A stretch of 64,000 nt of DNA from Hyphococcus sp. (GTDB lineage Bacteria; Pseudomonadota; Alphaproteobacteria; Caulobacterales; Parvularculaceae). The stretch is taken from NCBI GenBank assembly GCA_028284345.1, contig JANQRY010000010.1, positions 434,001-498,000 of the forward strand. Direction: 5' to 3'. Position numbers and translations under genes: made by a program. Below are positions 2,589-20,182 of this stretch, one piece after another; within the stretch, counting starts at the first letter, position 1, and every line of letters begins with the position of its first letter. The notes under the pieces are model-generated. The model searched no databases. It saw only the letters and a program-made list of their open reading frames with translations, and had not been told where the DNA came from.

Positions 2589-3202
2589 CGTCACTTCCCT
2601 CCCTAATGACATTCCGCCGACGTTTTGGCTCGTCAGCACGTGTTTGTTGAGCACGCAACGCAGCGCCGTTTTGCTTGCCGAAGAGGCGCAAACGACTGTC
2701 GCAATACTAGTCTTTTTCAAGTTTTCATTAGTCTCGGGTTAGTTCAAATTTATATACGGCGCGACCACTATCACCAGGATTGATGATGCAGGCCTCAACC
2801 ACAAACCGCCGCCTGAACCGCCGGATCTAAAGCGCGCTAGCGTAAGTTTGGATAAGGATAAAGCTTGCGAAACCGAAACTTTCCCGGCGCATCATGCGAC
2901 GTTCATTGACTTACGCGCGCCGCCGCTCTTTTCCAGACGTGTTGCAGGAAAGCGACGACCACAAACATTCCGTCCACCCTGCAACGCATAATTTTAACTC
3001 CAACCATTTGCGGCTCGCTCACGACGCAACATGATCGAACGACTCGCCGCTTTCGGTGACGCAAAAAAATCCAACTTCTCTTTGCTGCTTGCGCGTTATC
3101 ATTAGTCAACATTTTATATCTGTCTTTCTGTAGGCCCCTTTTTATAAAGCCGAAATTCGCTTGGAAGCTATGCTTCCCAACAATAACCTAGGAGGGGAAA
3201 TG
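2589..3202. other. Divergent intergenic region between two TonB receptors
   Basis: 614 bp carrying the promoters of the two receptors transcribed away from each other. AT-rich stretches occur near 2740-2760 and 3100-3150, but I cannot place -35/-10 boxes with confidence. No coding signal was recognised. The strong ribosome binding sites of both receptors lie at its two ends. Confidence 0.5.
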
Positions 3203-5392
3203 ATGAGCAGAAATCAAAAGCTATTTGGGTGCGCGTCGTGCATTGCGCTGACTTTTGCGGCGCATGCATATGCGCAGGAAACAGACACCGCCGACGAGAC
3301 AGTTTCGACCTCCGGCCTCGACGTAATTGTCGTTTCCGCGGAAAAGCGCGCCGAGAACCTTCAGGATATTCCGATTGCGATTACGGCCGTCTCCCCGAAA
3401 AGGTTGCAAGACGCCGGCATTCGTTCGGTTCAGGATCTCACCACCGTTATCCCGACTGTACAGTTTAACAGTAACTCGATTTCATTCATCCCGCGGATTC
3501 GCGGCGTCGGCGCAACATATTCCGGCACCGGGATCGAAAGCCCCGTCGCCGTGTTCGTTGATGACGTCTATCGTTCCTTTGCGGGCGACATAAATCTGGA
3601 CTTTCACAATGTCGAGCAGGTTGCGGCGCTTACCGGCCCGCAAGGCACCCTGTTTGGCCGCAACGCCACGGGCGGCGTGATCCAGGTGACGACCCGCGGG
3701 CCGGAGTTCGAACCCAGCGGCAGCCTTCAGGTGTCTTACGACAGCTATCAATTCCTGAGAAGCAACGGGTTTATCACCGGCCCGTTGTCTGATTCCATCG
3801 CCGCCAGCCTGTCAGTAAGCTATAACCGCCAGGGTGAGGGTTTCGGCACCAACCTCGCGACCGGCAACGATATCCGCAAGGTCGATGAGGAAATATTCGT
3901 ACACGGTAAAATTCGCGTGCAGGCGGGTGATCGCACGACCATCAACGTGTCCGCCGACTATGACCGCAAGCGCGGCTCGCTCGGATTGAACTTCCGCCGC
4001 GTCGACGGCAGGACCGTCATCAATCAGGGGCCGACAAATGGCGGCCTTTGGGACGCCGATCAATTCCATGACACCCACGCCGACATGAGAAATGGCGGCG
4101 CAACGGTGAAGATCGACCACGATCTGGGCTTTGCAACGCTGAGTAACATTGTGGCCTATCGAAAAAGCCATAGCTTCTATTACATGACGCCAGTGCCGAA
4201 CGGGCAGCCGTTTCTGGATATTCCAGTCGAATCACGGACCCGCCAGATCACCGAGGAAATTCAACTGGTGTCGTCCACCGGCGGCCCGCTGTCTTGGACC
4301 ATCGGCGGATTTTACTTCCACAATAATATTGATTTTGAATTCGAGCAGTTCTTCTACGACGATGGCGTAAGCACATTTGGCTTCTTGTACCAATCATTTC
4401 CGAGCAGCCAGGTGACCGACTCGTTCGCCGGCTATGCGCAAGGCACATATGATATTACGGACACGACCGCGATTACCGCTGGCCTGCGCTACACACACGA
4501 TAAGAGAATTTATAATGGCACCAGCATCTTAAATTTCGCCAGCGGCCTCAACCTTGAGTTTAACACGGTTGACGCGCGTAACACCGCCGGCAAGCTGACA
4601 TGGCGGTTCGCCTTGGAGCAAGAGTTTACGCCCGACATATTGGGGTATGTCTCTTATAACCGGGGCTTTAAAAGCGGCGGTTTCAATACGGCGGGCGGCG
4701 CCGGCATGCCGCCAAACGGCCCGACTTTCGAGCCCGAGCAGATCGACGCTTATGAAGCCGGACTTAAAACCGAACTGCTGGACAACACCGTTCGCTTGAA
4801 CCTGAGCGGCTTTTATTACGACTACGAAAATCTTCAGGTGAACATTTTTACGGGCGGTGCGCCCGCGATTTTTAACGCAGCGTCGGCGAAAAACTATGGC
4901 TTCGGTCTCGATGGAGAGGCTCGGCTTACTTCCGAACTGACGTTCACCGCCAATGTGGAATATCTGCAGGCGGAGTATAAATCCTTCACCAATGCGCCGT
5001 TCCACGCTCCGCTGCCGAGCGGCGGATCGAGTTCGTTCGCCGGCGACGCCAGCGGCAACTCTTTGGGATATTCGCCCGAACTCAAATATACGATCGGGTT
5101 GACTTACGATCTCCTGACGTCTGTGGGACTGGTCAGTTTCAACATAAATGACAGCTATAACAGCGGATTTTTCGTTGAACCGGACGAGGTGTTAAAGCAA
5201 GACGCCTATCACATCACAAACGCCTCGATACGGTGGACATCAGACGATGACAGACTGTCGATTCGTTTGTTTGCGAATAACCTCCTCAACAAAGCTGTCA
5301 TAACGCAGCAAAACAGCGTTCCTTGGGGATATATTCAGGACAACTCAAGCCCGCCACGCATCTTTGGCGGCGCGCTGGAAGTCAACTTCTAA
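3203..5392 (+). CDS. TonB-dependent outer-membrane receptor
   Basis: Outer-membrane uptake receptor of about 729 residues. Two consecutive ATG codons (3200 and 3203) follow AGGAGG; 3203 gives the better spacing (7 nt). A signal peptide ends near AHAYAQ. Then come a TonB-box-like DVIVVSA, a plug domain with GPQGTLFGRNATGG, and a barrel that ends in aromatic EVNF, as expected for outer-membrane insertion. It resembles the receptor at 342-2588 in family style but is clearly a different sequence. A terminator follows directly. Transcription is away from the first receptor and towards the LysR gene at 5788. Substrate not determined. Confidence 0.9.
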   Translation: MSRNQKLFGCASCIALTFAAHAYAQETDTADETVSTSGLDVIVVSAEKRAENLQDIPIAITAVSPKRLQDAGIRSVQDLTTVIPTVQFNSNSISFIPRIRGVGATYSGTGIESPVAVFVDDVYRSFAGDINLDFHNVEQVAALTGPQGTLFGRNATGGVIQVTTRGPEFEPSGSLQVSYDSYQFLRSNGFITGPLSDSIAASLSVSYNRQGEGFGTNLATGNDIRKVDEEIFVHGKIRVQAGDRTTINVSADYDRKRGSLGLNFRRVDGRTVINQGPTNGGLWDADQFHDTHADMRNGGATVKIDHDLGFATLSNIVAYRKSHSFYYMTPVPNGQPFLDIPVESRTRQITEEIQLVSSTGGPLSWTIGGFYFHNNIDFEFEQFFYDDGVSTFGFLYQSFPSSQVTDSFAGYAQGTYDITDTTAITAGLRYTHDKRIYNGTSILNFASGLNLEFNTVDARNTAGKLTWRFALEQEFTPDILGYVSYNRGFKSGGFNTAGGAGMPPNGPTFEPEQIDAYEAGLKTELLDNTVRLNLSGFYYDYENLQVNIFTGGAPAIFNAASAKNYGFGLDGEARLTSELTFTANVEYLQAEYKSFTNAPFHAPLPSGGSSSFAGDASGNSLGYSPELKYTIGLTYDLLTSVGLVSFNINDSYNSGFFVEPDEVLKQDAYHITNASIRWTSDDDRLSIRLFANNLLNKAVITQQNSVPWGYIQDNSSPPRIFGGALEVNF

Positions 5393-5471: not shown

Positions 5472-5787
5472 ATACAACACGCGAATTCATGGTCACTACG
5501 GAAAATATTGGAAGCTACGAAAATGACGGCGTCATTTACTTCTGTCATTGCGTTACATGAGGAATGATGTGCAATGGGCGCGGCGACCCGGCATTACTTC
5601 GTCGGCTGCGAGACGTGGCGATGACGTCGCCAATGCGTTGAAGGCGACCGTGACAAATTTCATGACCGCTTACTGATCGTGACCGGCATTGTGATATTGA
5701 TACTGCGGCGTTCTTTATTTAGTGATCTCGAACGGATATCGCAACGGCGGCGCGCAGACAGCGACCGGCCGGTCGAAAGAGGCAGCC
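5472..5787. other. Leader/promoter region of the LysR gene
   Basis: 316 bp between the terminator and the LysR start. It holds CGTGACAAATTT at 5649-5660, a 12-mer also present at 17666-17677 upstream of the minus-strand catabolic operon; such a match could arise by chance. No gene recognised. Confidence 0.35.
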
Positions 5788-6693
5788 ATGAAACTCAGCC
5801 ATTTACAGGTTGTGATCGCCGTTTCCGAGCTCGGCAGCTTGCGCGCCGCGAGCCGCCATCTTGGCATCGCCCAGCCTGCCATCACGCGCTCTATCCGCGA
5901 TGCGGAAACGGAACTTGGCGCTACGCTGTTCGACCGACACTCCAGGGGCGTGCGCATCACGCCAATGGGCGAAGCATTTGTTCGTCGCGCCATATCTGTG
6001 CAGAACGAACTAAGGCGCGCTCAGGAAGAAATCGACCAGTTAAAGGGGCAGTCAAAAGGACAAGTGTCAATCGCTGTTTCAGCGGCGGCGAATATCGCTT
6101 TGTTGCCGAACGCGCTGAACTATTTTCATAAAAGATATCCGAACGCCCTGGTTCGCGTGTCAGGCGGCTTATTTCAATCCGTTGAGCCAGATATCAAAGT
6201 GGGAAAATGCGACTTCTATGTCGGCGTAATCGATAAGGAAATCACGTCTACACGGCTTAACGTCAAAGAATTATTTGACAATGAGCGCGTCATTATTGCG
6301 CGCAAAGGGCACCCATTAGAAAAGTCAAACTCCATATCCGAGCTCAAAAACGCCAGATGGGTGCGTCCTTCGCTTGCCGAACGCTACGACGAGGCTGATT
6401 TTGATTCCTGGTTTGAAAGTCAGGACTTGCCGAAGCCAAAAATCGTCGTGCACAGCCAGTCGACTTTGGCGACAATGCTTGCTGTGGCGAACTCAGATCT
6501 TCTCACAATCCTGCCAAAACAATGGCTCGAATTTCCGATGACGAAAGATTACATCACCGCATTAGCGATCGGCGAGGCGATGAAAGCCGCGCCAATATCA
6601 ATTGTTCAGCGTCGTGACTTTCCGTTAACCCCGCTTGCGGAGCACTTGTATCACCAGTTTTGTCGCGCCGCTGCAAATTACGCTCAAAAATAG
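5788..6693 (+). CDS. LysR-family transcriptional regulator
   Basis: A 301-residue LysR-type regulator: winged helix-turn-helix at residues 1-60 (SELGSLRAASRHLGIAQPAI, then LGATLFDRHSRGV) followed by a LysR substrate-binding domain. The start at 5788 has AAAGAGG upstream and gives the canonical LysR beginning (MKLSHLQVVIAV); the open frame begins earlier at 5722 without such support. The GbpR/PcaQ-like style is common beside aromatic or sugar-acid catabolism genes. It converges with the MFS gene ending at 6709 (15-bp gap), which is the last gene of the phenolic operon, so it is the prime candidate regulator of that operon. The effector would be an aromatic compound or ring-cleavage product; this is inference from position. 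Confidence 0.88.
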   Translation: MKLSHLQVVIAVSELGSLRAASRHLGIAQPAITRSIRDAETELGATLFDRHSRGVRITPMGEAFVRRAISVQNELRRAQEEIDQLKGQSKGQVSIAVSAAANIALLPNALNYFHKRYPNALVRVSGGLFQSVEPDIKVGKCDFYVGVIDKEITSTRLNVKELFDNERVIIARKGHPLEKSNSISELKNARWVRPSLAERYDEADFDSWFESQDLPKPKIVVHSQSTLATMLAVANSDLLTILPKQWLEFPMTKDYITALAIGEAMKAAPISIVQRRDFPLTPLAEHLYHQFCRAAANYAQK

Positions 6694-6708: not shown

Positions 6709-8049
6709 CTAGGACTTCAGTCGGCTGAGAAGGAACACCGAGCCGGCTGCGATCAACATCGGAATCGCCCCGAACAGGAAAAGCGTCGACACCGGCAACG
6801 CCAACGCCAGGGCGGCGCCGACGACGACAGGACCGATCACTGCGCCCAGTCGACCGGCGGTCAGCGCCCACCCAAGGCCCGTGGCGCGGGATCCAGTATC
6901 GTAACTCGCGCTCGCCATAGCGTTGATGCCGAATTGGCAGCCGATAGCCGTGGAGCCTGCGAGAAATAACGAGACCAACAACAACGGAAGCGAGCCGGTC
7001 ATTTGACCGACAAGCGACACCGTCACCGCGGCGGCCAGGAAGGCCGCCAACATTGTTCGAACGGCGCCGATCCTATCAACGGTAATGGCGATCATCAGGC
7101 CGCCAACAACGCCGCCAGTGTTGAACAGAAGGGACGTGAGGATGGCGCGGTCCAGTGGAAAGCCCGCTGCGCTGAGAACTGACGGCAGCCAACCGACGAT
7201 GGCGTTGATCGCCAAGAGATTGCAGAAAAATATGACCCACAGCAAAAGCGTGACGGGTCTGCGTCCTTCCGAGAAAAGCGGCCGAATAGCGCCGCCCGTT
7301 TTTGCAACCGGCATAACAAATCGGGTGTTGGGCGTGGCGCCGGCGTCGCGCGCGATACCGTTGACGATTTTTGCGAGTTCGCCCGCACGGACGCCTTTTT
7401 GCGCCAGAAAGCGGGGCGATTCCGGAAGAAGGGGTAAAAGCAACGGCGCGATGACGAGCGGCAGAATGCCCCCAAGAACGAATACCGAGCGCCACCCGAA
7501 CGAATTCACAAGACCTGCGGTTGCAATCCCGCCCACGATGGCGCCGATGGGAAGCCCGACAAACATAATGGTCATCATAAGCGCGCGCCGTCGCGCAGGC
7601 GAAAACTCCGCCGTGATGATATTGATATTGGGCATGACCGCGCCCAACCCAAGTCCCGTTAAGAAGCGATATATAAAGAGCTCCGCCGTGCTGCCGGCCA
7701 GAGCCGTCAGCAAACTGAAAACGCCCATTATCACCGTTGACGCAACGATCACCGGCTTGCGGCCGAAACGATCGGCGAGCGGGCTGCCCAAAAACGCACC
7801 GAACATCAGTCCGACAAGCGCGGCTGACAGCAATTGTCCCATGAGCGCTGGCGCAATGGAAAACTTGCCGGTAACGGCCGGGGCGACATACGCCATGCTC
7901 ATCATGTCGAACCCGTCGACCATGGCGAGCATAAAGCAAAGACCCACAACGCGCCATTGCAGCGCGCCAATGGGTTTAGAATCGATCAGCTCGTCAATAT
8001 TGATCGTTTGCGCAGTCGCGTCGTCTGTTTTCGTTTCAGTATATGGCAT
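6709..8049 (-). CDS. MFS aromatic acid:H+ symporter (AAHS-like)
   Basis: A 446-residue, 12-helix major facilitator. The first helix carries the DGFD motif typical of the aromatic acid:H+ symporter group (PcaK/BenK/GalT-like), followed by the loop motif GSPLADRFGRKP. A long loop after helix 6 separates two six-helix halves. The start at 8049 is preceded by GGGAA six bases upstream. It lies 213 nt downstream of the beta-keto acid cleavage gene on the same strand and is probably the distal gene of the phenolic operon, although the gap could hide a separate promoter. Predicted role: inner-membrane import of an aromatic acid or phenolic carboxylate. Exact substrate unknown. Confidence 0.85.
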   Translation of the reverse strand: MPYTETKTDDATAQTINIDELIDSKPIGALQWRVVGLCFMLAMVDGFDMMSMAYVAPAVTGKFSIAPALMGQLLSAALVGLMFGAFLGSPLADRFGRKPVIVASTVIMGVFSLLTALAGSTAELFIYRFLTGLGLGAVMPNINIITAEFSPARRRALMMTIMFVGLPIGAIVGGIATAGLVNSFGWRSVFVLGGILPLVIAPLLLPLLPESPRFLAQKGVRAGELAKIVNGIARDAGATPNTRFVMPVAKTGGAIRPLFSEGRRPVTLLLWVIFFCNLLAINAIVGWLPSVLSAAGFPLDRAILTSLLFNTGGVVGGLMIAITVDRIGAVRTMLAAFLAAAVTVSLVGQMTGSLPLLLVSLFLAGSTAIGCQFGINAMASASYDTGSRATGLGWALTAGRLGAVIGPVVVGAALALALPVSTLFLFGAIPMLIAAGSVFLLSRLKS

Positions 8050-8262
8050 TCGCTATTCCCTATTTTTCGGAAGCCGGCCATGAGACCCGCCCTAATCGCG
8101 CTGAAAAATAGAAGATCGCGATTGACGCCAAGGCGCGGATGGATAAAGCATTGAAGATTTGTATGACGCCGCCAGGTCGGGCCTTCGGTGCCGTCAAACT
8201 GCGCGTTCGTTAGTATGTCAGGATAACTATTTTCTTACGCCCTGCCCGACTCCTTATCTCTT

Positions 8263-9189
8263 CTAAAACGCGACTGTGTCGCCGCCTTTAAGCGCCAACA
8301 TTTCCCTGGCTTCATCAGGGGTTGCGGCTTCATGGCCCATTTCCTCGATGATCCGTTTGATTTTTTTCACTTGTTCGGCGTTGTTCGCCGCGAGCTTGCC
8401 GCGCCCAATAAACAAGCTGTCTTCAAGCCCCACCCGCACATGGCCGCCCATAAGCGCAGCCTGGGTGCAGAACGCCATCTGATGACGCCCTGCGGCGAGA
8501 ACGGACCATTGGAAATTTTCGGCGCCGAATAATCGGTCGGCGGTCTGCTTCATCACCATCAGGTTTTCAAGATCAGGGCCGATGCCGCCGAGAATGCCGA
8601 AAATCATCTGAATAAAGAACGGCGGACGCACAAGACCTTCATTGACAAAATGCGCGAGGTTGTAGAGATGGCCGACGTCGTAGCATTCATGCTCGAATTT
8701 CGTGCCCGCCTCGTTCATGGTCTCGAAGATGGTTCTGATGTCGCGAAACGTGTTCCGGAAGATGTAGTCGTCGGAGTTTTTGACGTAGCCTTCTTCCCAG
8801 TCGTACTTCCATTGCGAAATGCGTTTGGCCGCCGGGAAAAAAGCGAAATTGATCGAGCCCATATTCAGCGAACACACTTCCGGCTTGAATTTGGCGCCGG
8901 CCGCGAGCCGGTCCTTCACGCCCATGGTCGCGCTTCCGCCGGTGGTGATGTTGATGACGGCGTTGGTGCTTTGCTTGATGGTCGGCAGAAACCGTTCATA
9001 GATCGCCGGGTCGCCGGTGGGAGAACCGTCTTGCGGGTTGCGCGCATGCAGATGCAGGATCGCAGCGCCCGCCTCGGCGGCGTCGATAGACTGGCGCGCG
9101 ATGTCTTCCGGCGTGATCGGCAGGGCGTCCGACATGGTCGGCGTATGGGCGGAACCAGTGACGGCGCAGCTGATGATGACCTTGCCCAT
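8263..9189 (-). CDS. Beta-keto acid cleavage enzyme (BKACE, DUF849)
   Basis: A 308-residue TIM-barrel Zn enzyme of the BKACE family (type member Kce, 3-keto-5-aminohexanoate cleavage enzyme), which condenses a beta-keto acid with acetyl-CoA and splits off acetoacetate. The Zn ligands are visible as HLH (H46, H48), with the later VRVGLED strand carrying the expected acidic residue (E256). Length is normal. The start overlaps the stop of the upstream MFS gene in TAATG, indicating translational coupling. In this operon it would act late, on a beta-keto acid produced after ring cleavage. Family assignment is strong; substrate inferred only from neighbours. Confidence 0.9.
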   Translation of the reverse strand: MGKVIISCAVTGSAHTPTMSDALPITPEDIARQSIDAAEAGAAILHLHARNPQDGSPTGDPAIYERFLPTIKQSTNAVINITTGGSATMGVKDRLAAGAKFKPEVCSLNMGSINFAFFPAAKRISQWKYDWEEGYVKNSDDYIFRNTFRDIRTIFETMNEAGTKFEHECYDVGHLYNLAHFVNEGLVRPPFFIQMIFGILGGIGPDLENLMVMKQTADRLFGAENFQWSVLAAGRHQMAFCTQAALMGGHVRVGLEDSLFIGRGKLAANNAEQVKKIKRIIEEMGHEAATPDEAREMLALKGGDTVAF

Positions 9190-10472
9190 TATGCAGCCCC
9201 TTTTTCGATATCAGCTGGCGTTTGGCGACTGGCCCGCGCAGCGCGCGGCGCCGTCTCTTCAAGCATCAATATCGCCAGAAATCCGACGGCCAGACCGGCC
9301 ATCGCCACGTAAAAGACGCTCTCCAAACCGTAGTGTTCGGCCATAAACCCGGCGAAAACCGGCGCCCCGGCGCCGCCAAAAATTTCGCCAAAGCCGATCA
9401 CGAGGCCGGAAGACGTCGCCATCAGATGCGGCGGCACCGATTCCGCGCTCACCGGTCCGACCGTGAGCGTGATCAGGCCGAAATTGAAAAAGTGAGTCAT
9501 GAAAAGGCACCAGAAAAGCAACGACGGCGAAGCATCCACTTGCGTAAACAGAAGAACGAAGATGAGCGCGCCGGCGGCGGAGACCGCCATGGCCGGTTTG
9601 CGGCCGACGCGATCGGACGTCGCCGGCACGACCAGACACCCGGCCGCCGCACCGAACCCGATCGCTGAAAGAATGTAGCCCATATCGGTGATCCCAAGAC
9701 GGAGGTGTTCCGTTAAGTAGCTTGGAAGCAACGCCGTCGTAACGATCAGGCAGGTGAGCCAACACAGCATGCAGACAATCAGGAACTTCGGATTGCGATG
9801 GCTCAGCGCCTCCGACCAATTGGCGACGAGCGCCTTGAAATTCACCGTACTGCGCTCAGACGATACCGGCCTCACGTCACGCAAGACAAAGTACATTGCC
9901 GCGGCCAGTATAAATCCCGGAAAGGCCAGCAGCAAAAAGATCCAGCGCCAATCCATGACCTGAAGAAGCTGCGTAATGACAAGCGGCGTGATCGCAAGGC
10001 CAAGCAACGGCGCCATCATCTGTTGCAGGCCGACATTAAACCCGTGCCGCGTTGGTTTTGACGCCTCGACCGTTGCGCTGATGCTTACGGGCGTATAGGC
10101 CCCGTCCGCAAAACCCATCAGCACACGAACAAGGATCAAACCGCCAAGGCCGGTCGCGAGGCCGCTCGCGCCCACCAGGACGGAAAAAACAATGATCGAG
10201 ACGATAATAACCTTGCGGTGCCCCATACGGTCGGAAAGGTTGCCCATCAACAAAGCGGAGACGCCCCAGGCGAGCGCCAGCGCCCCGGTGATAAGACCGA
10301 GCGCCGTATAACTGAGGTCAAATTCTTCCTTGATCGCCGGGAAAAGCGGCATGATCATGAAGCGTTCTACGCAAACCAATCCGAAACCGAGAGAAAGCAG
10401 CAAGACCGCTTTCCATTCGTATTTCGGATCCCAACTCGATGTTTCGTTTCGTGGCGCAGCGCTTCCCGTCAT
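9189..10472 (-). CDS. MFS transporter in the phenolic operon
   Basis: A 427-residue major facilitator with 12 predicted helices and the loop motif MGNLSDRMGHRK after helix 2. It overlaps the preceding gene (Mo-enzyme small subunit) by ATGA and the following one (BKACE) by TAATG, so it belongs tightly to the operon. It lacks the DGFD signature of the other MFS gene here and looks closer to the organic-anion/hexuronate-type MFS carriers. Likely imports the phenolic substrate or exports an intermediate. Direction and substrate cannot be read from the sequence. Confidence 0.88.
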   Translation of the reverse strand: MTGSAAPRNETSSWDPKYEWKAVLLLSLGFGLVCVERFMIMPLFPAIKEEFDLSYTALGLITGALALAWGVSALLMGNLSDRMGHRKVIIVSIIVFSVLVGASGLATGLGGLILVRVLMGFADGAYTPVSISATVEASKPTRHGFNVGLQQMMAPLLGLAITPLVITQLLQVMDWRWIFLLLAFPGFILAAAMYFVLRDVRPVSSERSTVNFKALVANWSEALSHRNPKFLIVCMLCWLTCLIVTTALLPSYLTEHLRLGITDMGYILSAIGFGAAAGCLVVPATSDRVGRKPAMAVSAAGALIFVLLFTQVDASPSLLFWCLFMTHFFNFGLITLTVGPVSAESVPPHLMATSSGLVIGFGEIFGGAGAPVFAGFMAEHYGLESVFYVAMAGLAVGFLAILMLEETAPRAARASRQTPADIEKGAA

Positions 10473-11338
10473 TGACCGGCGCCGCCTTGAGAACCGGACG
10501 CCAGTTCAATCTCACCGAGAAAAAGGCTCTCGCCAAGGACGGCGCGGACGGACGCCGATTCGCCTCCGACCGCCGTGATTCGCACTTCATACTCGCCGCT
10601 GTCCGGCGCTAGTTTATCGAACTTAAAATCTCCGAAATCGTCAGTCATCTCGCGCGCTACCTCCTCGCCGTTTTGCACCAGGACGACTTCTGCGCCCTCA
10701 CAGCACTCCTTGGCGCTGTCACGCTGATGCGTCACAGAACCGCCAATGAAGCACTTCGAATAACGGTGAAGATTCTTATAGTATACGCGCGGGCGCGTTC
10801 CAAGTTCAGGCTTTAAAACTTCAAGCGCTTCGCCCGCCGCAAGGGCGTTCATTTCATCATCGCTGACATTCACCGCCTTTAATGCGCCGGTCGGACAGGC
10901 TTGCGCACAGCGGGGCTGTTTCCAGCCCTGGTCCAAAAGGTGCGCATCGAAAATCCAGATTTGCGGAACTTGCTCCTCCTCGTTCCACCAGATCGCGCCG
11001 TAAGGACAGGCTTCAACCAACTCCTTGCGGCCCTTGGCTTTGACAGGATCGATGATGACGACGCCGTCATTGCGCTTGTAAACTGATCGGTCGCCGGCCG
11101 CCTTGATGCACGGCGCGTCATCGCAATGGTTGCACATTTTCGGCAGATAGGCCGTGTCCACCATATGCCCGCGACCGCGAACTTTTCGTTCGATGCTGAT
11201 CCATTCATGCCCGTGCAAGGGTTGCGGCGCGGCGTAACCCTCGAACCTGTTGTCTACATGCTCGTCCTTTAGCGCCAGGGTGCAATTGTGGCAGTTTTCA
11301 CAACGCTCTACGTCAACAATCATATTCCACTTCGACAT
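10469..11338 (-). CDS. Hydroxytransferase small subunit: Fe-S protein with C-terminal beta domain
   Basis: A 289-residue partner of the molybdenum subunit, matching the small subunit (BthL) of pyrogallol-phloroglucinol transhydroxylase, including the linker PELGTRPRVYYKNLHRY and a C-terminal Cna-B/carboxypeptidase-like beta domain (about residues 205-289). Cys groups seen: C13/C16/C19, C69/C72/C77, C111, C144/C148. Compared with the Pelobacter protein as I remember it, the fourth Cys of the first group is Leu23 and the later Cys-x2-Cys is W128-I-F-D131, so one of three [4Fe-4S] clusters has lost three ligands. The ATG follows GGAGTAG 9 nt after the large-subunit stop, and the stop overlaps the MFS start (ATGA). 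Cytoplasmic, no Tat signal. Resorcinol hydroxylase small subunit is an alternative reading. Confidence 0.88.
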   Translation of the reverse strand: MSKWNMIVDVERCENCHNCTLALKDEHVDNRFEGYAAPQPLHGHEWISIERKVRGRGHMVDTAYLPKMCNHCDDAPCIKAAGDRSVYKRNDGVVIIDPVKAKGRKELVEACPYGAIWWNEEEQVPQIWIFDAHLLDQGWKQPRCAQACPTGALKAVNVSDDEMNALAAGEALEVLKPELGTRPRVYYKNLHRYSKCFIGGSVTHQRDSAKECCEGAEVVLVQNGEEVAREMTDDFGDFKFDKLAPDSGEYEVRITAVGGESASVRAVLGESLFLGEIELASGSQGGAGQ

Positions 11339-11347
11339 GGCGCTGAT

Positions 11348-14338
11348 CTACTCCGCCGCTGCGCGTGGAGACGCAAAAGCCGAAAGGTCCGTCCACGGTT
11401 CGATTTCAACAAGGCAGGAATTGCACGCCATGCCAGACGTGTTCTTCACCTGATGGCGCTTGGGCGTCAAAAGGTTCAAACAGCCGCCGCGGTCGATGCG
11501 GCCATGAACAGGATGTTCGATCATGTCGAAAACCGCCGCCGACTCATACCCCTTGATCGCCCCCGGCGCCATAAGCGACGTAACATCGGCGGCGCAAAGG
11601 ACGCTGCCGCGGTCGTTAAAAATGCGAATAATCGAATGGTGTTTGATCCCGCGCCTTTCCGCATCGTCGGCGTTCACCTTGACGACCCAATAGTAATACC
11701 CGTCGATCAGAACGCGATGGTCGGCGATGTCGTTGGTCGTGCTGTCTTTGCCGTCGTTGGACGTATGAAAACTGTAGCGCGAATGGGTGGATAACATCAG
11801 CAAAGGATACTTATCGGCAAGCTCCGTTGTCTGCGCCCCTTCCCAGGCAGGCGTGTAACGATTGAGCACCGGGCGTTCCTCATTGTCCGGATCGCCGCGT
11901 TTTAGTGTCTCCGGCAGAAATTCTATTTTGCCAGACTGGGTTTCAAGTCCGTGCAAAAATTTCTCGCTGAATTGCGACGGCAGGGGTATCGGCTCCGGCA
12001 GGTCCTTCGGGCGATCCTCGGCGAACCAGCGATAGGCCACCGGATCGCGACATTCTTCCGGCACGGGGGGAAGCACGAAGTAGCCCTTTTTTGCAAAGTC
12101 CTTCCAGCTTACATAACGCGGCAAATCCGATGAATCGAACGTCCGCCTGCACCACTCCAGTTCATCGCAAGCTTCGGAAAAGACGACGCCAAGATTAAGA
12201 CGCGACAATATCTCGAAAAAGATCTGATAGTCCGACTTCGACTCGCCAAGGGGTTCGATACATTTGTTCTGCAGCATCACGATCCGATGATTCATCTGAT
12301 CGGTGTTATGGTGAATATAGCCCCCGCTATTTCCCCATTCGCTGATGTCCCACCGCTCGAAAGACGTACAGGCCGGCAAGATCACGTCCGCAAATTCCGT
12401 TTCGCCTTCCCGCCAGATGGACTGATTGACGACAAAATCGATCGACTCATGTCGATAGGCGTCGATCATGCGTCCGGAATTGGCGATCGTTCCGAAGGTC
12501 GAAGAGCCGTAACGATAAATCATATGGATCGGCGAATAGCCCGGCGTGGGATAGGTGAACGGCGTAAACTGCGCCTCCATGGATTGGCCGTCCCACATAT
12601 AACCGCTGGCTTCGCCTTCAATAATCGCTTCGGCAAGCTTCAGGCGCGGGATCATTTGCTTGACCGGGTTCATCGACAGAACATGCGGCATGCGCAGATA
12701 GTTGTTGACAGCGCTTGCCGTGTAAACAAGCTCGCCGGAAATGCCCCCGTCAGCGTAGCCCGGAAAATAGAAATTGTGATCGACCGGCGTGCCAAGTTGC
12801 AAGTTGCCAAAGTTGACGCCCGGCTTTCCAAGCCCTTGCATGGCCATCATAAGCACCATGTTGCGCGCCCATTGCGAGCCGTTGGCGCCCCGCGCCGCGC
12901 CGCCTAATCCGGCCCCGAAACCACCGGCGGACAGGTAAGTTTTCTTATTTCCCCATTTGCGCGCGAGCGCGCGGGCGACATGCGCCGGCACGCCGGTTTC
13001 TTCTTCCTGCCATTCCGGCGTCTTCGCGACGCCGTCGCTGACGCCCAGAATGTAATCGCGCCACTCGTCAAAACCGGTGGTGCGCTTTTCGACATAGTCG
13101 GCGTCATAGAGATTTTCGGTAATCCACACATGCATGATCGCTTGGGCGAGCGCGCTGTCCGTCCCCGGTTTGATCGGAACCCAGCGCCCGCCGAAGAGCT
13201 GCGCGGTTGGATTTAAATTCGGATCGATATGGACAAATTCAATGCCAAGCTCTTTGGCCCAGAACCGCCGTTGCGTGCCTTCAAATCCGGCTGCATAGCC
13301 ATAGGTGCTTTCCGGATCGCTCGACCAGAAAACGATCATTTCCGCTTCTTTCAGACAGTCTTCGACGGTCGAACAGAAAGACGGAATGCCCACGCGCAGC
13401 GACGATCCATAGTGGTGCGTGGCGCCCCAGTACCACCCTTCCCATGAATCGGGATTGGGATGAATGCGCGTAAAGCCGATCAGATTGCCGAAACGCAACA
13501 GCGCTGAAAGGTAATAGCCGACGTTGCCCCATTGATGATGAGAGCCGAAGTACAGCGCAATCGCGCCCGGCCCGTATTTGCGCTTTTGTCGTTGAATTTC
13601 ACCCGCCACAATATCAAGCGCTTCGTCCCAGGAGATACGTTCGTATCCGGATTTTCCGCGATTCTGCGGATTGCGCTCGCCATTCGGGTCGAAGTCCACC
13701 CGTTTCATCGGATACAGGATACGGTCTTTGGAATAGAGCGTCGATTTCAAAGACAAGGCGTGTGGATTCGGCACAACGCGGCGTTCCGGCGTGAACTCCT
13801 TCCCGCGCGCGGTCATGGTCCAGCTCGGCGCATCCTTATCGTCAAGCTCGATGGGCGTGATACGGAGAATTTTTCCGTCTTTGACATAAACGAATGTCGG
13901 CCCGCCATTGCCGTTATGCACGAACCGCCGCGATCCGTCCGGCATCGGCGTTCCGTACTCTACGCCAATACGCGTAAGCGCGTTGATCATCCCGTGAAAC
14001 CATTGCACCAGATGATCGGGGCCGACTTGAATAATGGCAAAGTTTTTTGCGGCGTGCACCGCCTCGCCGCGATCGATCGGCGGCGTGAGGAGATGCACAG
14101 CCGTCGCAGCATCCTTGAAAAGAATTCGCACATCGGCGTCCGCGCGAACGCCTTTGCGGCTTTTTATCTTGCCGTTCTTGAATTCGTATGAGCGACCGAT
14201 TTTTTCATCGCGGGTTTGCATCTGGACGACGGCGTCGCGCTCTTTCATCAGCGTGCGCAACTCAGACGACACAACGGCGCCGGCGCGCAACGCCTGCGGA
14301 ATCGTGAACAGCAAAATCTCAAGGGCGACAGCCTTCAC
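11348..14338 (-). CDS. Molybdopterin hydroxytransferase large subunit (transhydroxylase/resorcinol hydroxylase type)
   Basis: A 996-residue DMSO-reductase-family Mo-bis(MGD) protein closely resembling the large subunit of Pelobacter pyrogallol-phloroglucinol transhydroxylase and the related resorcinol and 3,5-dihydroxybenzoate hydroxylases. Family blocks include GSHHQWGNVGY (267-268 His-His), NPDSWEGW (Asp297, Ser298 = proposed Mo ligand), FYFPGYADGG (Tyr528) and FADVILPACTSFERWD. These match the transhydroxylase catalytic His144, Asp174/Ser175 and Tyr404 by recollection. It has no N-terminal [4Fe-4S] Cys motif and no Tat signal, so it is cytoplasmic. Residues 1 to about 130 are an extra domain absent from the 875-residue Pelobacter protein and resembling an SCP2 sterol-carrier fold. 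The start is GTG at 14338, with AAGG ten bases upstream. The small subunit follows 9 nt later. Confidence 0.9.
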   Translation of the reverse strand: MKAVALEILLFTIPQALRAGAVVSSELRTLMKERDAVVQMQTRDEKIGRSYEFKNGKIKSRKGVRADADVRILFKDAATAVHLLTPPIDRGEAVHAAKNFAIIQVGPDHLVQWFHGMINALTRIGVEYGTPMPDGSRRFVHNGNGGPTFVYVKDGKILRITPIELDDKDAPSWTMTARGKEFTPERRVVPNPHALSLKSTLYSKDRILYPMKRVDFDPNGERNPQNRGKSGYERISWDEALDIVAGEIQRQKRKYGPGAIALYFGSHHQWGNVGYYLSALLRFGNLIGFTRIHPNPDSWEGWYWGATHHYGSSLRVGIPSFCSTVEDCLKEAEMIVFWSSDPESTYGYAAGFEGTQRRFWAKELGIEFVHIDPNLNPTAQLFGGRWVPIKPGTDSALAQAIMHVWITENLYDADYVEKRTTGFDEWRDYILGVSDGVAKTPEWQEEETGVPAHVARALARKWGNKKTYLSAGGFGAGLGGAARGANGSQWARNMVLMMAMQGLGKPGVNFGNLQLGTPVDHNFYFPGYADGGISGELVYTASAVNNYLRMPHVLSMNPVKQMIPRLKLAEAIIEGEASGYMWDGQSMEAQFTPFTYPTPGYSPIHMIYRYGSSTFGTIANSGRMIDAYRHESIDFVVNQSIWREGETEFADVILPACTSFERWDISEWGNSGGYIHHNTDQMNHRIVMLQNKCIEPLGESKSDYQIFFEILSRLNLGVVFSEACDELEWCRRTFDSSDLPRYVSWKDFAKKGYFVLPPVPEECRDPVAYRWFAEDRPKDLPEPIPLPSQFSEKFLHGLETQSGKIEFLPETLKRGDPDNEERPVLNRYTPAWEGAQTTELADKYPLLMLSTHSRYSFHTSNDGKDSTTNDIADHRVLIDGYYYWVVKVNADDAERRGIKHHSIIRIFNDRGSVLCAADVTSLMAPGAIKGYESAAVFDMIEHPVHGRIDRGGCLNLLTPKRHQVKNTSGMACNSCLVEIEPWTDLSAFASPRAAAE

Positions 14339-14425
14339 CAGATGATTACCTTATTTTTTGTATATCAAGTGACGAATGAAACTGGTTTGGGCGGGAACCA
14401 CCGCCGCGCCCGCAGAGGCTGCGCG

Positions 14426-15358
14426 TCAGGACATTGTTTCGAAGTTGACCAGCATCTCGTCGGGCAGTTCCGGCGCCCAGTTTGTAAAGGAGTCTTCAAT
14501 TGCGTAGTTCGTCGGCTTCCATGCGTCTGCATCCGGGATGTAGTCCATGTCGCAGTAATATTCGGCCCAGCTTCCCCATGGGTCCTGAACATAATGGAAA
14601 AAATTCGAACCGATCGTGTGGCGGCCAAGTCCCCAATTTTGACTACCGGTTTTTTCGGCGACGCGCTCGCCTGCGATACCAGCCTCATCCGGCGTGTTGA
14701 CCTGAAAGCTCACATGATGGAGACCAACGCCATCCGATTTGGCGAAAGCAAGCACGTGATGATCGGAACCGCCAACGCAGGTCGTGAAGGCGATGACATC
14801 CTGGGCGCGGTCCGCTAGCCGCATGCCGAGAACATCTTCCACGAACTTTACGCTCTCCAGCACGTCCGGCGAGAAAAAAGCCGAATGGCCAAATTGTTTC
14901 GGCTTGACCGGCGGGATTTTGCGCTTCGGCTCCACGCCTGCTTTGCCAACCCTGTTCAAACGGCCAACGGAATTGATTTCAAACGCCCCCTCTTCGGGAG
15001 GAGGCGCTTCGCGTTCCGCGACGACAATATGAAACAACATGCCGTGCGGGTTTCTCACCCAAAGCCCGTTGTCTTCAAACCCGGCCGGGGGCGCAACAAT
15101 GTCAGCTTTTGCATTTTCCGCCCTGCGTCGAACATCTTCAAGTTCACTGGCGTTGAGCGCGCCCATTTCCACGTGAGACAGGCGCTTTTTATTTTTTGTG
15201 GGCGTCAGGACGATGCTGTCATATTCGCGCCCATAGCAGCGCGCATATCCGCGCCCGTCTTCGGCTCGCGTTTCAAGCCCGAACTCCTTGTAAAATTCGA
15301 GTCCCTCGGCGACATCAGGAACTTCAAGGTAGACCGCTTTGAGAAAGCTAACCGCCAT
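14426..15358 (-). CDS. Two-domain extradiol ring-cleavage dioxygenase (VOC/type I)
   Basis: A 310-residue enzyme made of two vicinal-oxygen-chelate domains, the size and layout of catechol 2,3-dioxygenase/BphC-type extradiol dioxygenases. The C-terminal domain carries all expected catalytic features: Fe ligands H158 (FGHSAF), H215 (LHHVSF) and E266 (WAEYY), plus the acid/base His200 or 201 and the conserved Tyr256 before DPWG. It should therefore be active and O2-dependent, opening a ring next to an ortho-diol. The ATG follows AGGGAG. It lies 87 nt upstream of the Mo hydroxytransferase and 44 nt downstream of an FAH-type hydrolase, the usual meta-cleavage partner. The exact phenol is unknown; a trihydroxybenzene is a reasonable guess. 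Confidence 0.9.
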   Translation of the reverse strand: MAVSFLKAVYLEVPDVAEGLEFYKEFGLETRAEDGRGYARCYGREYDSIVLTPTKNKKRLSHVEMGALNASELEDVRRRAENAKADIVAPPAGFEDNGLWVRNPHGMLFHIVVAEREAPPPEEGAFEINSVGRLNRVGKAGVEPKRKIPPVKPKQFGHSAFFSPDVLESVKFVEDVLGMRLADRAQDVIAFTTCVGGSDHHVLAFAKSDGVGLHHVSFQVNTPDEAGIAGERVAEKTGSQNWGLGRHTIGSNFFHYVQDPWGSWAEYYCDMDYIPDADAWKPTNYAIEDSFTNWAPELPDEMLVNFETMS

Positions 15359-15402
15359 TGTTCGTCTCCCTAGCTGGGTTCGTCTTGGTCTCCGCTCACG
15401 CG

Positions 15403-16272
15403 CTACTTGGCGTCTGCAATGATTTTGTTCTCGATGTAGCCAATTTGGTCGACCTCACATCGCACCACGTCGCCAGGCTTCAGAAACACTTTCGGATCCC
15501 GCGCTGCGCCGACGCCTTCCGGCGTTCCCGTTGCGATGACGTCGCCGGGTTCGAGCGTAAACGCAGTCGACAAATATTCGATCATGTCGGCGCATTTATA
15601 GATCATGTCCGCCGTGTTCGAGTTCTGCATTTCCTCGCCGTTCACAAAACACCGCAAGCCAAGCGTTTGCGGGTCCGGAATTTCATCCGCCGTGACGAAC
15701 CAGGGGCCCAGGGGACCGTGCGTGTCGAACGACTTGCCAATCGTAAAGGTCGGCGTATGCCGCTGCCAGTCGCGGACCGACACGTCGTTGCAGACCGTAT
15801 AACCGGCGATGTAAGAGAGGGCGTCGCTGGCTTTGACATGCTTGGCCGGCTTGCCAATCACAAAAGCAAGCTCAACCTCGAAATCAAGCATGTCGGAAAC
15901 GCTTGGCTTCACGATAGGATCGTAAGGTCCGTTGATGCAGGATACCTGCTTGTTGAACCAATATTGATATTTGGGCGGCTCAATGCCGACCTTGATGGCC
16001 TCTTCAAGGTGACGCTGGTAGTTCATGCCGATGGCCAGAAACTTGCCGGGCCGGAGAATCGGAGAGGCGAGACTGACCTCGGAGACGGCCTTTCGAGGCA
16101 GATCTTCTTTCAGCGCGTCGAGCACGCGGCCGCGAGCGTCTTCGCCGCCCGCTATAAACTGCTCCACATTTGCGGGAAAACCGGAGGCCGCGTCAGGCAG
16201 GAGAATGATCTCCTCGCCCTCCACAACGCCAAGCCGAATTCCGTTTGCGGTCGTGTAGTTAGCGAGCTTCAC
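15403..16272 (-). CDS. Fumarylacetoacetate hydrolase-family enzyme
   Basis: A 289-residue FAH-fold protein: short N-terminal domain, then the catalytic domain with GMNYQRHLEEA, the acidic metal-binding block DFEVELAFVIGK, and DVIATGTPEGVG. Family members hydrolyse or hydrate 2-keto-diene acids or decarboxylate oxaloacetate-like products of meta cleavage; I cannot tell which. I chose a GTG start at 16272 because GGGAGG lies four bases upstream and it gives the usual FAH beginning (VKLANY); an ATG at 16353 is in frame but would read through this ribosome binding site. It is co-directional with the extradiol dioxygenase 44 nt downstream, so it most likely processes the ring-opened product. Confidence 0.88.
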   Translation of the reverse strand: MKLANYTTANGIRLGVVEGEEIILLPDAASGFPANVEQFIAGGEDARGRVLDALKEDLPRKAVSEVSLASPILRPGKFLAIGMNYQRHLEEAIKVGIEPPKYQYWFNKQVSCINGPYDPIVKPSVSDMLDFEVELAFVIGKPAKHVKASDALSYIAGYTVCNDVSVRDWQRHTPTFTIGKSFDTHGPLGPWFVTADEIPDPQTLGLRCFVNGEEMQNSNTADMIYKCADMIEYLSTAFTLEPGDVIATGTPEGVGAARDPKVFLKPGDVVRCEVDQIGYIENKIIADAK

Positions 16273-16453
16273 ATTTCCTCCCAGACTATTAATCGCGCTG
16301 GTTTTTTCCAAAAAACGTGGTTTAGGGATGTGGCCAGCGTCGTTATTTGTCAAATATATTTATAAGCGCATTAATATTCATCTTGATGATAAGGATGGCG
16401 GCGCAAGCCGCCGACCAAATTGGCGCCGCGCGGCCAGAGAGGCGACCGGCGCC

Positions 16454-17449
16454 TTAGCTGATTTTCAAGGCCGATTGCTTCGTCGCGCCGTCTGGCGCGG
16501 AGACCAGGCTCTGCCCATTTTCATAAATCGCCCGGCGCAATGTCTCGCTAAATTTGGGCGTATTGTCCAACGAGGCTTTCAGCTCTTTGCAAAGGTCAAT
16601 CGGCGTAAACGGGTAATCGCTTCCATAGAGCAATTTTTTAGGATCGGCGACGTTCATTAAAGGATCGAGCATATCGGGAACACATGCCCCTGCGAGATCA
16701 AAATAAAGATCAGCCAACATCCCGCGAATATTCAACTTGGCTTCCGACGCCGCTTCTGTGAGAAGCGGTAAAGCCATATCGATTCTCGCAGATAACAATG
16801 GCAGCGCAGCGCCAGCATGAGGAACGATGATGCGTAAATTTGGATACCGAATTGGCACGCCTGTTATCAGCATATCCGCCACAGAACGCGCTGTCTCGAA
16901 CATGAATTCGAGAATTGGTCGCGGATAACTCGCGTCCATCCGGGTGCATTGACCGACATTTGGCGATGTCGGATGTATAAATACGACGGCATTACGATCG
17001 TTCAATGCCTCGTAGACAGGCGTTAGCATTGGGTCGCCAAGATAGACGCCATCATGGTTTGTGTACATTACAACGCCGTCGGCGGACAGCCGATCCAAGG
17101 CATATTCCAGCTCAACAATTGACCTCTCAATATGAGGCAAAGGCAGAGACGCAAAATACCCCAACTTGTCTGGATTGTCCGCCTTGAACTGGGCCCCTGC
17201 TTCATTGACGCGGCGGGCCAATTTCGCCGAATAATCTTCGTTGAAGAACGAAACGCCCGGCGAAGAAATGGACAGAAAGGAATAGTCTATTTCCATACGG
17301 TCCATATACTGAAGAACGCTATGCTCGCTCCACTCAGGAATTTTGGAAACGCCGTCCGGCTTGGACTGACCAGCCTCTACAAGCGCATCCCTGTAGAAAT
17401 CAGGAAGGAAATGAGATTGGACGTCAACACAGCGTTTTATAGTTTGCAT
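16454..17449 (-). CDS. ACMSD-like amidohydrolase with altered metal-binding motif
   Basis: A 331-residue amidohydrolase-2 (ACMSD/gamma-resorcylate decarboxylase-like) TIM barrel. Visible motif residues are H13, H159 (VFIHPTSP), H211 (VPHAGAALP) and D278 (LLYGSDYP). The first metal-strand His is replaced: VDVQSHFLP (Q11) instead of the HCH of its paralogue at 1-180. Family decarboxylases may carry Glu there, so Gln is unusual but need not kill activity. The ATG follows GGGATAA. It is the first gene of the minus-strand phenolic operon, 181 nt upstream of the FAH gene. Possible roles: decarboxylating a phenolic acid before the Mo enzyme acts, or hydrolysing a ring-cleavage product. Function unassigned. 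Confidence 0.85.
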   Translation of the reverse strand: MQTIKRCVDVQSHFLPDFYRDALVEAGQSKPDGVSKIPEWSEHSVLQYMDRMEIDYSFLSISSPGVSFFNEDYSAKLARRVNEAGAQFKADNPDKLGYFASLPLPHIERSIVELEYALDRLSADGVVMYTNHDGVYLGDPMLTPVYEALNDRNAVVFIHPTSPNVGQCTRMDASYPRPILEFMFETARSVADMLITGVPIRYPNLRIIVPHAGAALPLLSARIDMALPLLTEAASEAKLNIRGMLADLYFDLAGACVPDMLDPLMNVADPKKLLYGSDYPFTPIDLCKELKASLDNTPKFSETLRRAIYENGQSLVSAPDGATKQSALKIS

Positions 17450-17957: not shown

Positions 17958-18743
17958 TCAGGAGATAACGTCTCTCACAAGCCACCCGCCATCGATCTTG
18001 AATTCACCGCCCGTGACATAGGCGGCTTCGTCAGATACGAGATAGAGAATCATTTGAGCGACATCTTGCGGCGCGCCCCGCCTGCCGAACGGTATGGACG
18101 AAAGCAGCTTGGCCTCCGCTTCCTCCTTCGTGCAGCCGGCCGCCTTTGCCAGATCCGCGATGATATCATCTGTCATTCTTGTTTTTATGGAGCCCGGATG
18201 GACGGAATTGACGCGCACTTTTTTGCCGTCGCGCGATCCGAGGTAAGCGAAACTTTGCGCAAGATGCTGGACGCCGGCCTTACTCGCGCCATAGGGAATA
18301 CTGGTGGCCGTCGACATAAAAGAGACGATCGACGAAAGCAGGACGACCGATCCCGCGCCCTGCTGCAACATGAACGGCATAACGGCCTGGCAACCGAAAA
18401 ACGTTCCCGTCATATTGACGGCGATCACCTGATTCCAGACCTCTGGCGGCGTCTCGAATGCATTTCGGCTATTGTCGCCCTCAATACCGGCGCATTGAAC
18501 CAAGATGTCGATCCGCCCACGATCGTCAAAGACGCGCTCGGCGAGCGCCTGCCAGGCGCTGCGATCCGTCACGTCAAGCGCGTGAAACCGGCCGCCGATT
18601 TCCTGCGCGATCTGTTGGCCCTTCTTTTCATCGAGGTCGGCGAGAATGACGTCAGCGCCCTCGCCAGCAAGCACGCGAGCGCTTTGCGCCCCAATGCCGC
18701 CGCAACCGCCGGTAACGATGGCAATCTTATCCTTCACGCGCAT
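17958..18743 (-). CDS. Short-chain dehydrogenase/reductase (classical SDR)
   Basis: A 261-residue classical SDR, cytoplasmic NAD(P)H-dependent alcohol/ketone oxidoreductase. It shows the cofactor motif TGGCGGIG (residues 11-18), an acidic residue D36 after the second strand favouring NAD(H), the NNAG-equivalent CAGIEG, the serine block VVLLSSIVS and the catalytic Y151-x3-K155. The C-terminal VTGGEFKIDGGW is standard. The start ATG at 18743 gives the normal N-terminus, with a purine-rich GAGGGGGG somewhat far upstream. It reads towards the phenolic operon but lies 508 bp before it, so co-transcription is uncertain. Substrate unknown. Confidence 0.88.
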   Translation of the reverse strand: MRVKDKIAIVTGGCGGIGAQSARVLAGEGADVILADLDEKKGQQIAQEIGGRFHALDVTDRSAWQALAERVFDDRGRIDILVQCAGIEGDNSRNAFETPPEVWNQVIAVNMTGTFFGCQAVMPFMLQQGAGSVVLLSSIVSFMSTATSIPYGASKAGVQHLAQSFAYLGSRDGKKVRVNSVHPGSIKTRMTDDIIADLAKAAGCTKEEAEAKLLSSIPFGRRGAPQDVAQMILYLVSDEAAYVTGGEFKIDGGWLVRDVIS

Positions 18744-20003: not shown

Positions 20004-20182
20004 GACGATTTAGATCTCAGTTTGAAGCCAGAATATATTCGACGTGCTTAACCATGTATGACCGCCGAGCGCGGCGGCGAGAGCACCATCTGTTGGGGCG
20101 GCCGAACAAAAAGCTCAGAGTCAGTTTCGCATCGACAAAAAGAACGGCTCAACCTGTCGACTCTCGCAAAACATGAAGTGGT

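Follow-up and report, generated by a model that had tools for sequence, protein, structure and literature searches.

How does a molybdenum (Mo) hydroxylase with relatives in anaerobic-type gene settings come to be encoded beside an extradiol ring-cleavage dioxygenase? The question is raised by a 64,000-nucleotide stretch of Hyphococcus sp. contig JANQRY010000010.1 (positions 434,001 to 498,000 of the forward strand; hereafter the window, whose own numbering is used throughout), where an eight-gene minus-strand run at 6709-17449 encodes both subunits of a Mo enzyme together with enzymes and carriers for aromatic compounds. The first-pass annotation took this run for an operon joining the Mo enzyme to aerobic extradiol cleavage in an O2-using bacterium. 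The genome indeed holds two COX1-family oxidase genes, and the O2-linked gene set is real and recurrent, with the pairing of Mo enzyme and oxygenolytic cleavage found in at least 18 named genera. On balance, the operon probably serves the aerobic catabolism of 5-substituted resorcinols, with Mo-dependent hydroxylation followed by extradiol cleavage. It appears to be a new variant of known chemistry, one that pairs a Mo hydroxylase with oxygenolytic cleavage.

Organization of the operon

All eight open reading frames (ORFs) noted at first pass were found intact on the minus strand. The operon centers on the large subunit of the Mo hydroxylase/hydroxytransferase (11348..14338, 996 aa, GTG start), which is followed by the small, iron-sulfur (Fe-S) subunit (10469..11338, 289 aa), an MFS transporter (9189..10472, 427 aa; PF07690), a BKACE protein (8263..9189, 308 aa; Pfam BKACE, 359 bits) and an AAHS-type MFS transporter (6709..8049, 446 aa). 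The large subunit is preceded by a VOC-superfamily extradiol dioxygenase (14426..15358, 310 aa; PF00903), an FAH-family C-C hydrolase of the acylpyruvase type (15403..16272, with the listed ORF extending to 16353; PF01557, 241 bits), an ACMSD-like amidohydrolase-2 protein (16454..17449, 331 aa) and, farther upstream, an SDR family dehydrogenase. The close packing reported from the large subunit to BKACE holds, with a 9-nt gap between the two Mo subunits, a 4-nt overlap of the small subunit and MFS genes, and a 1-nt overlap of the MFS and BKACE genes. The VOC and large subunit genes are 87 nt apart and the BKACE and AAHS genes 213 nt apart. Pfam and NCBIfam agree with the gene names, except for the AAHS protein (below cut-off) and the amidohydrolase (no NCBIfam family).

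Recurrence of the gene neighborhood

A genome scan gave at least 592 confirmed relatives, the best 80 of which were used. A second gene from one of these loci (L066), two further loci (G000 and G015) and the window bring the set to 84 large-subunit genes, which were placed with TthL of Pelobacter acidigallici in an 85-row tree (quick IQ-TREE with SH-aLRT and no bootstrap, holding no RhL or DbhL sequence). A gene was counted as near the Mo gene if it lay within ~7.5 kb, start to start or end to end, and contigs that ended early were counted as misses. Gene families at the loci were blast/Louvain clusters of codon-scored ORFs, several of them made of VOC pieces, and neighboring clusters were annotated from one representative protein each. 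In the window, codon scoring shortened the MFS protein to 389 aa instead of 427, reduced the amidohydrolase to a 67-aa fragment and missed a LysR gene; therefore, the cluster tables under-detect some genes.

In the tree, the window sits in a crown clade of 56 rows with a support of 99, a count that includes the window and the second locus of the same genome. The crown was delimited on the tree after the VOC and FAH labels were known, so the comparison describes the association and is not a blind test of it: a VOC gene is near the Mo gene in 45 of the 56 crown rows versus 0 of the 28 rows outside. VOC and FAH are both near it in 43 of the 56, and outside the crown FAH occurs alone in 2/28. Absence of the neighborhood from other genomes had been set beforehand as refuting the proposal; the neighborhood is present, as these counts show, and on the same counts we rejected a chance neighborhood. 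The nearest VOC gene is on the same strand as the Mo gene in 44 of the 45 loci that have a VOC gene, and the nearest FAH gene in 41 of the 45 that have an FAH gene. The rows with both genes come from at least 18 named genera and 9 named families. Among close genomes prevalence was 2 of 60 (own genome included), and in the phylum sample it was 1 of 398, the one being the genome of the window. The genes, their catalytic motifs, the recurrent neighborhood and the clade are direct observations.

The window groups with enzymes that bear an SCP2 domain, apart from TthL, which is on its own branch with a second Moorella copy; both are long-branched and their join is uncertain. Outside the crown, some Mo genes have a phloroglucinol-type context of BKACE, SDR and 3HCDH genes (L066, L067, L069 and L075), and others stand beside a second, FdhF-like Mo gene (L081 and L082 among them). 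The simplest reading of the tree would be one passage from anaerobic-type to O2-type contexts, and it is provisional because the tree is rooted by two outgroup rows with long branches.

The molybdenum enzyme

The large subunit consists of an SCP2-fold region (residues 1 to ~135), an AhtL-like domain 1, a molybdopterin oxidoreductase domain and a dinucleotide-binding domain (PF21423, PF00384 and PF01568). Its best solved match is the Pelobacter transhydroxylase 4v4c_A (943 bits, residues 138-983), with DMSO reductases next at ~219 bits, and the best solved match of the small subunit is 4v4c_B (250 bits), so that both subunits match TthLS over their full catalytic length and the first-pass placement in the transhydroxylase family stands. 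When the 84 genes and TthL are aligned, the window keeps TthL positions His144, Tyr152, Asp174, Ser175, Trp176, Tyr404 and Tyr560, presumed active-site residues, and with D174-S175-W176 it keeps the Ser-coordinated Mo site. Two residues that we take to line the TthL substrate pocket are replaced in the window, Arg153 by Tyr and Cys557 by Ser. Position 153 is Arg in TthL only and Lys only in the second L066 (Moorella) copy. It is Trp in the four loci beside phloroglucinol-type genes (L067, L069, L075 and the first L066 copy) and also in L029, L073, L077, L083 and L085. A MoaA-like gene for Mo-cofactor biosynthesis is found near the Mo hydroxylase in the Pseudomonas-type loci L018 (16050-17042), L017 and L023, the family being read from L018.

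TthS holds three [4Fe-4S] clusters, and of its twelve candidate ligand Cys the window small subunit keeps nine, having lost Cys23, Cys126 and Cys129. In the set of 81 small subunits that were clustered (versus 84 large-subunit genes), each of these three is kept in 0 of 55 crown members, and the other ligand positions are kept in 54-55 of the 55, except Cys145 (50/55). Outside the crown, Cys126 and Cys129 are both kept in 6 of 26 (L066, L067, L069, L075, L077 and L083) and Cys23 in 14 of 26; since losses are seen there as well, the ligand loss is partly older than the crown. If, as we assume from the usual ferredoxin pairing, Cys23, 126, 129 and 145 bind one cluster, the crown small subunits probably lack that cluster.

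The N-terminal SCP2-like domain (13934..14338, minus strand) places ~135 residues ahead of the first catalytic domain and is absent from TthL. An AlphaFold2 model of residues 1-150, built with 45 sequences, had a mean pLDDT of 86.1 and a pTM of 0.74, and a Foldseek search matched it 26 times at E values of 0.001 or lower, to SCP2 proteins, UbiJ-SCP2 and alkylsulfatases/YjcS. These matches had E values of 7e-6 to 8.5e-4 with moderate query TM-scores (0.37-0.54). Pfam SCP2 (PF02036) was weak in 10 of the 45 members (best E 0.0022) and had no match in the window sequence. SCP2 domains bind lipophilic ligands.

Enzymes and carriers around the molybdenum enzyme

The VOC protein aligns to homoprotocatechuate 2,3-dioxygenase and keeps the 2-His-1-Glu Fe site that a type I extradiol enzyme requires (H158, H214/H215 and E266) as well as H200/H201, H247 and Y256 of the second sphere; the roles of all these residues are taken here as presumed, and with them in place the claim of a catalytically complete dioxygenase is borne out. 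In Rhizobium/Ensifer loci (L010, L015 and L088:15707-16815), VOC is split into adjacent genes of ~144 and ~225 aa. The FAH protein has E159/E161 and D190, presumably the metal ligands, and an H115-x-x-E118 motif that we take to be the lid dyad, in the numbering of the 316-aa form that begins at the listed TTG (16353). The alternative GTG at 16272 seems the likelier start because it has GGAGG directly upstream.

The BKACE protein scores 525.5 bits against NF053538 (3,5-dioxohexanoate:acetyl-CoA acetone transferase; cut-off 430), which is also passed by the BKACE of L026 and by that of a flavin-monooxygenase locus (L102). Three others are below the cut-off, L067 at 401 bits and L069 at 379 (a short ORF), both in phloroglucinol context, and L059 at 178; these six scores did not narrow the substrate. 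What had been called an aromatic-acid symporter is an AAHS-type MFS protein, with 353 bits against the 418.6-bit cut-off of TIGR00895. A homologue (45%) of the other MFS protein adjoins the Mo genes in L059. For the amidohydrolase, PF04909 supports the general part of the ACMSD-like label, and the first metal motif departs from it, reading Gln11-Ser-His13 where 2f6k and three aligned homologues have HxH. Gamma-resorcylate decarboxylases are among its matches.

The proposed last pathway step in relatives

Within ~7.5 kb of the Mo gene, the 43 loci with VOC and FAH carry either an acyl-CoA synthetase (27), BKACE (6: the window, L016, L026, L054, L059 and L060) or neither (10), and none carries both, as expected if the synthetase and BKACE share a 3-oxo acid as their substrate. 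We could name no other product that would be taken by a CoA ligase as well as by BKACE, and from this we infer a 5-substituted 2,3,5-trihydroxybenzene that would be cleaved next to its side chain and hydrolyzed to pyruvate and R-CO-CH2-COOH. The nearest synthetase is on the same strand as the Mo gene in 25 of the 31 rows that hold one anywhere in the locus, and the representative synthetase scores 917 bits against PRK07529.

Representatives from synthetase-type loci include OmpW (L055), a FadL/TodX-type porin (L020) and MlaD (L036; PqiB-like, below cut-off). Those of DUF1302, DUF1329, BNR and MMPL (L007, L019, L049 and L059) come mainly from loci without a synthetase, some of which carry VOC and FAH and some of which (L007 and L025) do not. 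On pT173c of Ensifer canadensis, the two Mo subunits are accompanied by TetR, an acyl-CoA synthetase, two VOC genes, FAH and an outer-membrane transport protein; plas2 of Burkholderia stagnalis has VOC, FAH, acyl-CoA synthetase and OmpW with both subunits; and in Paraburkholderia PGU19 both Mo genes are beside VOC, FAH and OmpW. Clusters that combine a CoA ligase with FadL or OmpW look like gene sets for the degradation of alkylresorcinols. In four loci (L019, L021, L028 and L064), an acetoacetate-decarboxylase-family gene (L021:16507-17400) and an aldehyde dehydrogenase (read from L064) occur with Mo, VOC and FAH genes, where a different last step is possible.

A proposed pathway for 5-substituted resorcinols

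The substrate, the regiochemistry, the electron acceptor and every reaction of the pathway are what we infer. The AAHS and MFS carriers would import an aromatic compound, possibly a 2,4-dihydroxy-6-substituted benzoic acid, from which the amidohydrolase may strip the ring carboxylate. The SCP2-fused Mo enzyme, of resorcinol-hydroxylase type, would then add a hydroxyl with oxygen from water to give a 2,3,5-trihydroxy(alkyl)benzene, and the VOC enzyme would use O2 to open the ring next to the side chain, yielding a 2,4,6-trioxo acid. This acylpyruvate would be cut by FAH to pyruvate and a 3-oxo acid (R-CO-CH2-COOH), and BKACE would convert the 3-oxo acid and acetyl-CoA to acetoacetate and R-CO-CoA. 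The role of BKACE would fall to an acyl-CoA synthetase in many relatives from the Burkholderia group, the Rhizobium group and Pseudomonas.

The earlier proposal had left the ring as either resorcinol- or pyrogallol-type. A resorcinol that bears a side chain is the better fit, since the relatives carry an acyl-CoA synthetase and FadL-/OmpW-type proteins instead of BKACE. Pyrogallol is made less likely by the replacement of TthL Arg153 and Cys557 and by the loss of 3 of the 12 candidate Fe-S ligands of the small subunit. The FadL- and OmpW-type proteins point to lipophilic alkylresorcinol substrates in those relatives. The window operon is without a CoA ligase and FadL, which makes a long alkyl chain less likely for its substrate than a short side chain or an orsellinate-type acid. 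A broader scheme seems to us possible and somewhat short of probable, namely that the gene set forms a widespread aerobic route by which phenolic lipids and polyketide resorcinols (5-alkylresorcinols and 6-alkyl-2,4-dihydroxybenzoates) are broken down. For this route, an ancestrally anaerobic Mo hydroxylase would have been captured once by O2-dependent metabolism and would have lost one Fe-S cluster, with SCP2 presenting the substrate. The side chain would leave as a 3-oxo acid, to be ligated to CoA for beta-oxidation or cut by BKACE.

A number of observations weigh against the pathway for 5-substituted resorcinols. The operon holds neither an electron acceptor nor a membrane partner gene for the Mo enzyme, and its lack of CoA ligase and FadL counts here too. 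The amidohydrolase seems less certain as an enzyme because its first metal ligand is Gln and not His. The NF053538 label of BKACE would fit an acetonyl side chain; it is a family name on which we do not rely. By alignment, the SCP2 domain is found in aerobic-type and anaerobic-type relatives, and because it is shared by both and absent from TthL it may be taken as a hint about the substrate, not as proof. Four crown rows (L007, L008, L009 and L025) still have Cys557, and therefore its change is no mark of the whole crown. No VOC gene was found within ~7.5 kb in 11 of the 56 crown rows; among these, L004 has a partial VOC at a contig edge and L009 and L022 are short contigs, and in the rows from Janthinobacterium, Sedimenticola and Rugamonas VOC is truly missing from that range. 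A same-genus relative (G015, locus L085), placed outside the crown, carries a Mo gene but neither VOC nor FAH, and on Salipiger abyssi pPABY2 the VOC and FAH pair is ~5 kb from the Mo genes on the opposite strand. Finally, Burkholderiaceae (18/43) and Rhizobiaceae (7/43) dominate the rows with VOC and FAH, and therefore the mutual exclusion of synthetase and BKACE does not amount to many independent events.

Other explanations of the gene set

The enzyme's closest solved relative is a transhydroxylase, and the lost Fe-S ligand set could fit an enzyme with no electrons to pass out, as would be the case if the Mo enzyme carried out redox-neutral transhydroxylation of the pyrogallol/phloroglucinol type and the dioxygenase cleaved a tri- or tetrahydroxybenzene with no side chain. 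However, both pocket residues are replaced, TthL and the second Moorella copy have a branch of their own (with the uncertainty of its join), and such rings give no 3-oxo acid for BKACE or for a long-chain-type acyl-CoA synthetase. We consider this explanation unlikely, and pure pyrogallol transhydroxylation was rejected on these grounds. It is rather unlikely, too, that unsubstituted resorcinol (or gamma-resorcylate) is hydroxylated to hydroxyhydroquinone and then taken by extradiol cleavage and FAH to pyruvate and malonate semialdehyde. The decarboxylases among the matches of the amidohydrolase would suit such a route, as would the aldehyde-dehydrogenase cluster gene near the Mo genes of L019, L021, L028 and L064, but the L064 enzyme best resembles HpaE, with 351 bits of a 638-bit cut-off, and this explanation has no place for BKACE in the window or for the acyl-CoA synthetase of other loci and their lipid-type proteins of the outer membrane.

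With an SDR gene beside BKACE, and BKACE fitting the 3,5-dioxohexanoate (triacetate) family, the window might instead encode the oxygen-independent phloroglucinol pathway of reductase, cyclohydrolase, dehydrogenase and triacetate lyase, in which SDR would be the reductase, BKACE the triacetate lyase, and VOC and FAH bystanders. We rejected this route, which is very improbable: the window has no member of the two gene clusters (41 and 42, for 3HCDH and a 112-aa protein) that accompany the Mo genes in the anaerobic loci L066, L067, L069 and L075, position 153 is Tyr here and Trp in those four loci (as in the five others listed above), VOC and FAH sit inside the operon between the amidohydrolase and the Mo genes, and the genome has COX1-family oxidases. 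The neighbors might also serve two pathways, with VOC and FAH acting on another catechol while the Mo enzyme works on a phenol to detoxify or modify it, and VOC and FAH do occur as pairs without a listed nearby Mo gene on plasmids pA81 and pOT1-1. This is quite unlikely given that VOC is tied to the crown, is almost always on the strand of the Mo gene, and is kept with the Mo gene at the second locus of the same genome. We therefore retain the catabolism of 5-substituted resorcinols as the preferred explanation.

Relation to known systems

RhLS is the resorcinol hydroxylase and DbhLS the 3,5-dihydroxybenzoate hydroxylase of Azoarcus and Thauera. The reaction expected for the window enzyme, resorcinol hydroxylation with water, is the same as that of RhLS and DbhLS of these genera, whose pathways continue anaerobically. 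The window enzyme resembles the Pelobacter pyrogallol-phloroglucinol transhydroxylase TthL/TthS (4v4c) in both subunits, in its Ser Mo ligand and in most active-site residues, and differs from it in the extra SCP2 domain, Tyr153, Ser557, three fewer Fe-S Cys and its O2-dependent context. PMC10100899 treats RhL and PgtL as one family, with RhL operating under anaerobic respiration and PgtL under fermentation, and tabulates Ser as the Mo ligand of both.

The closest aerobic parallels use other hydroxylases. The aerobic orcinol pathway consists of an O2-dependent flavin hydroxylase, an extradiol oxygenase and a hydrolase; it shares with our proposal the trihydroxy ring, the ring-opening oxygenase and hydrolysis to pyruvate, and differs in that the hydroxyl would here come from a Mo enzyme. 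In 2,4-dinitrotoluene (2,4-DNT) degradation, DntG is FAH-like. The lower 2,4-DNT pathway (PMC10602510) runs from the trihydroxytoluene oxygenase DntD and the isomerase/hydrolase DntG to pyruvate and propionyl-CoA, and DntD, DntG and DntE are a precedent for trihydroxy ring, oxygenase and pyruvate, with hydroxyls from O2-dependent enzymes there and, as proposed, from a Mo enzyme here. The anaerobic phloroglucinol cluster (PGR, DPGC, TfD and TAL; PMC10470551) uses a lyase of the BKACE family late, on a 3-oxo acid with acetyl-CoA, but it opens the ring reductively where the window has a dioxygenase and FAH. Another extradiol route ends in pyruvate and acetoacetate (PMC12746152).

The first-pass annotation knew of no description of this gene set as a pathway, and we found none in the full-text literature searched by titles and abstract beginnings, a scope that leaves out most subscription papers and all preprints, so that absence from print is unproven; the same search gave no bacterial gene set for alkylresorcinol breakdown. 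If the proposal is true, water-based Mo hydroxylation of phenols is not limited to anaerobic pathways and serves as the first step of an oxygenolytic pathway in genera that are common in soil, the rhizosphere and water, and the relatives offer candidate genes for the breakdown of alkylresorcinols, which are cereal and bacterial phenolic lipids. Why an aerobe avoids a flavin monooxygenase, and how the Mo enzyme works minus part of its Fe-S chain, become testable questions.

Other loci in the genome and flanking genes

The same genome has a second locus (L101; G000:C5:832000-851900) with counterparts of the large subunit (76%), small subunit (66%), VOC (48%) and LysR (60%), an AAHS protein (29%), two TonB receptors and, at 12 kb, FAH (51%). 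A third locus (L102; G000:C5:104000-123900) has BKACE (64%), VOC (27%), LysR, AAHS (32%), two FAD_binding_3 proteins, and cyclase-family and esterase-like genes, with no Mo gene, and looks like a conventional O2-dependent version of a similar route.

In the window, a LysR regulator (5722..6693, plus strand; PF00126/PF03466) converges on the operon and ends 15 nt from the AAHS gene. At the other end, the SDR gene (17958..18743, minus strand; PF13561) lies upstream of the amidohydrolase across a 508-nt gap, and its membership in the operon is uncertain. Upstream of SDR is an FGE/sulfatase pair (18966-22057, minus strand; Pfam FGE-sulfatase and Sulfatase), which could feed the pathway by releasing aryl sulfates; in the loci of the relatives compared, no sulfatase match was found, and there were weak FGE matches (28-31%) in L068, L070 and L072. 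The LysR, SDR and FGE/sulfatase genes, like the second locus, the SCP2-fold domain and the lost Fe-S ligands, go beyond what the first-pass annotation noted. A promoter scan did no better than shuffles (8 found versus 8.4 expected), and terminator-like sites numbered 25 versus 18.9 in shuffles. TonB-dependent receptors (342-2720 and 3161-5392) flank the operon on one side.

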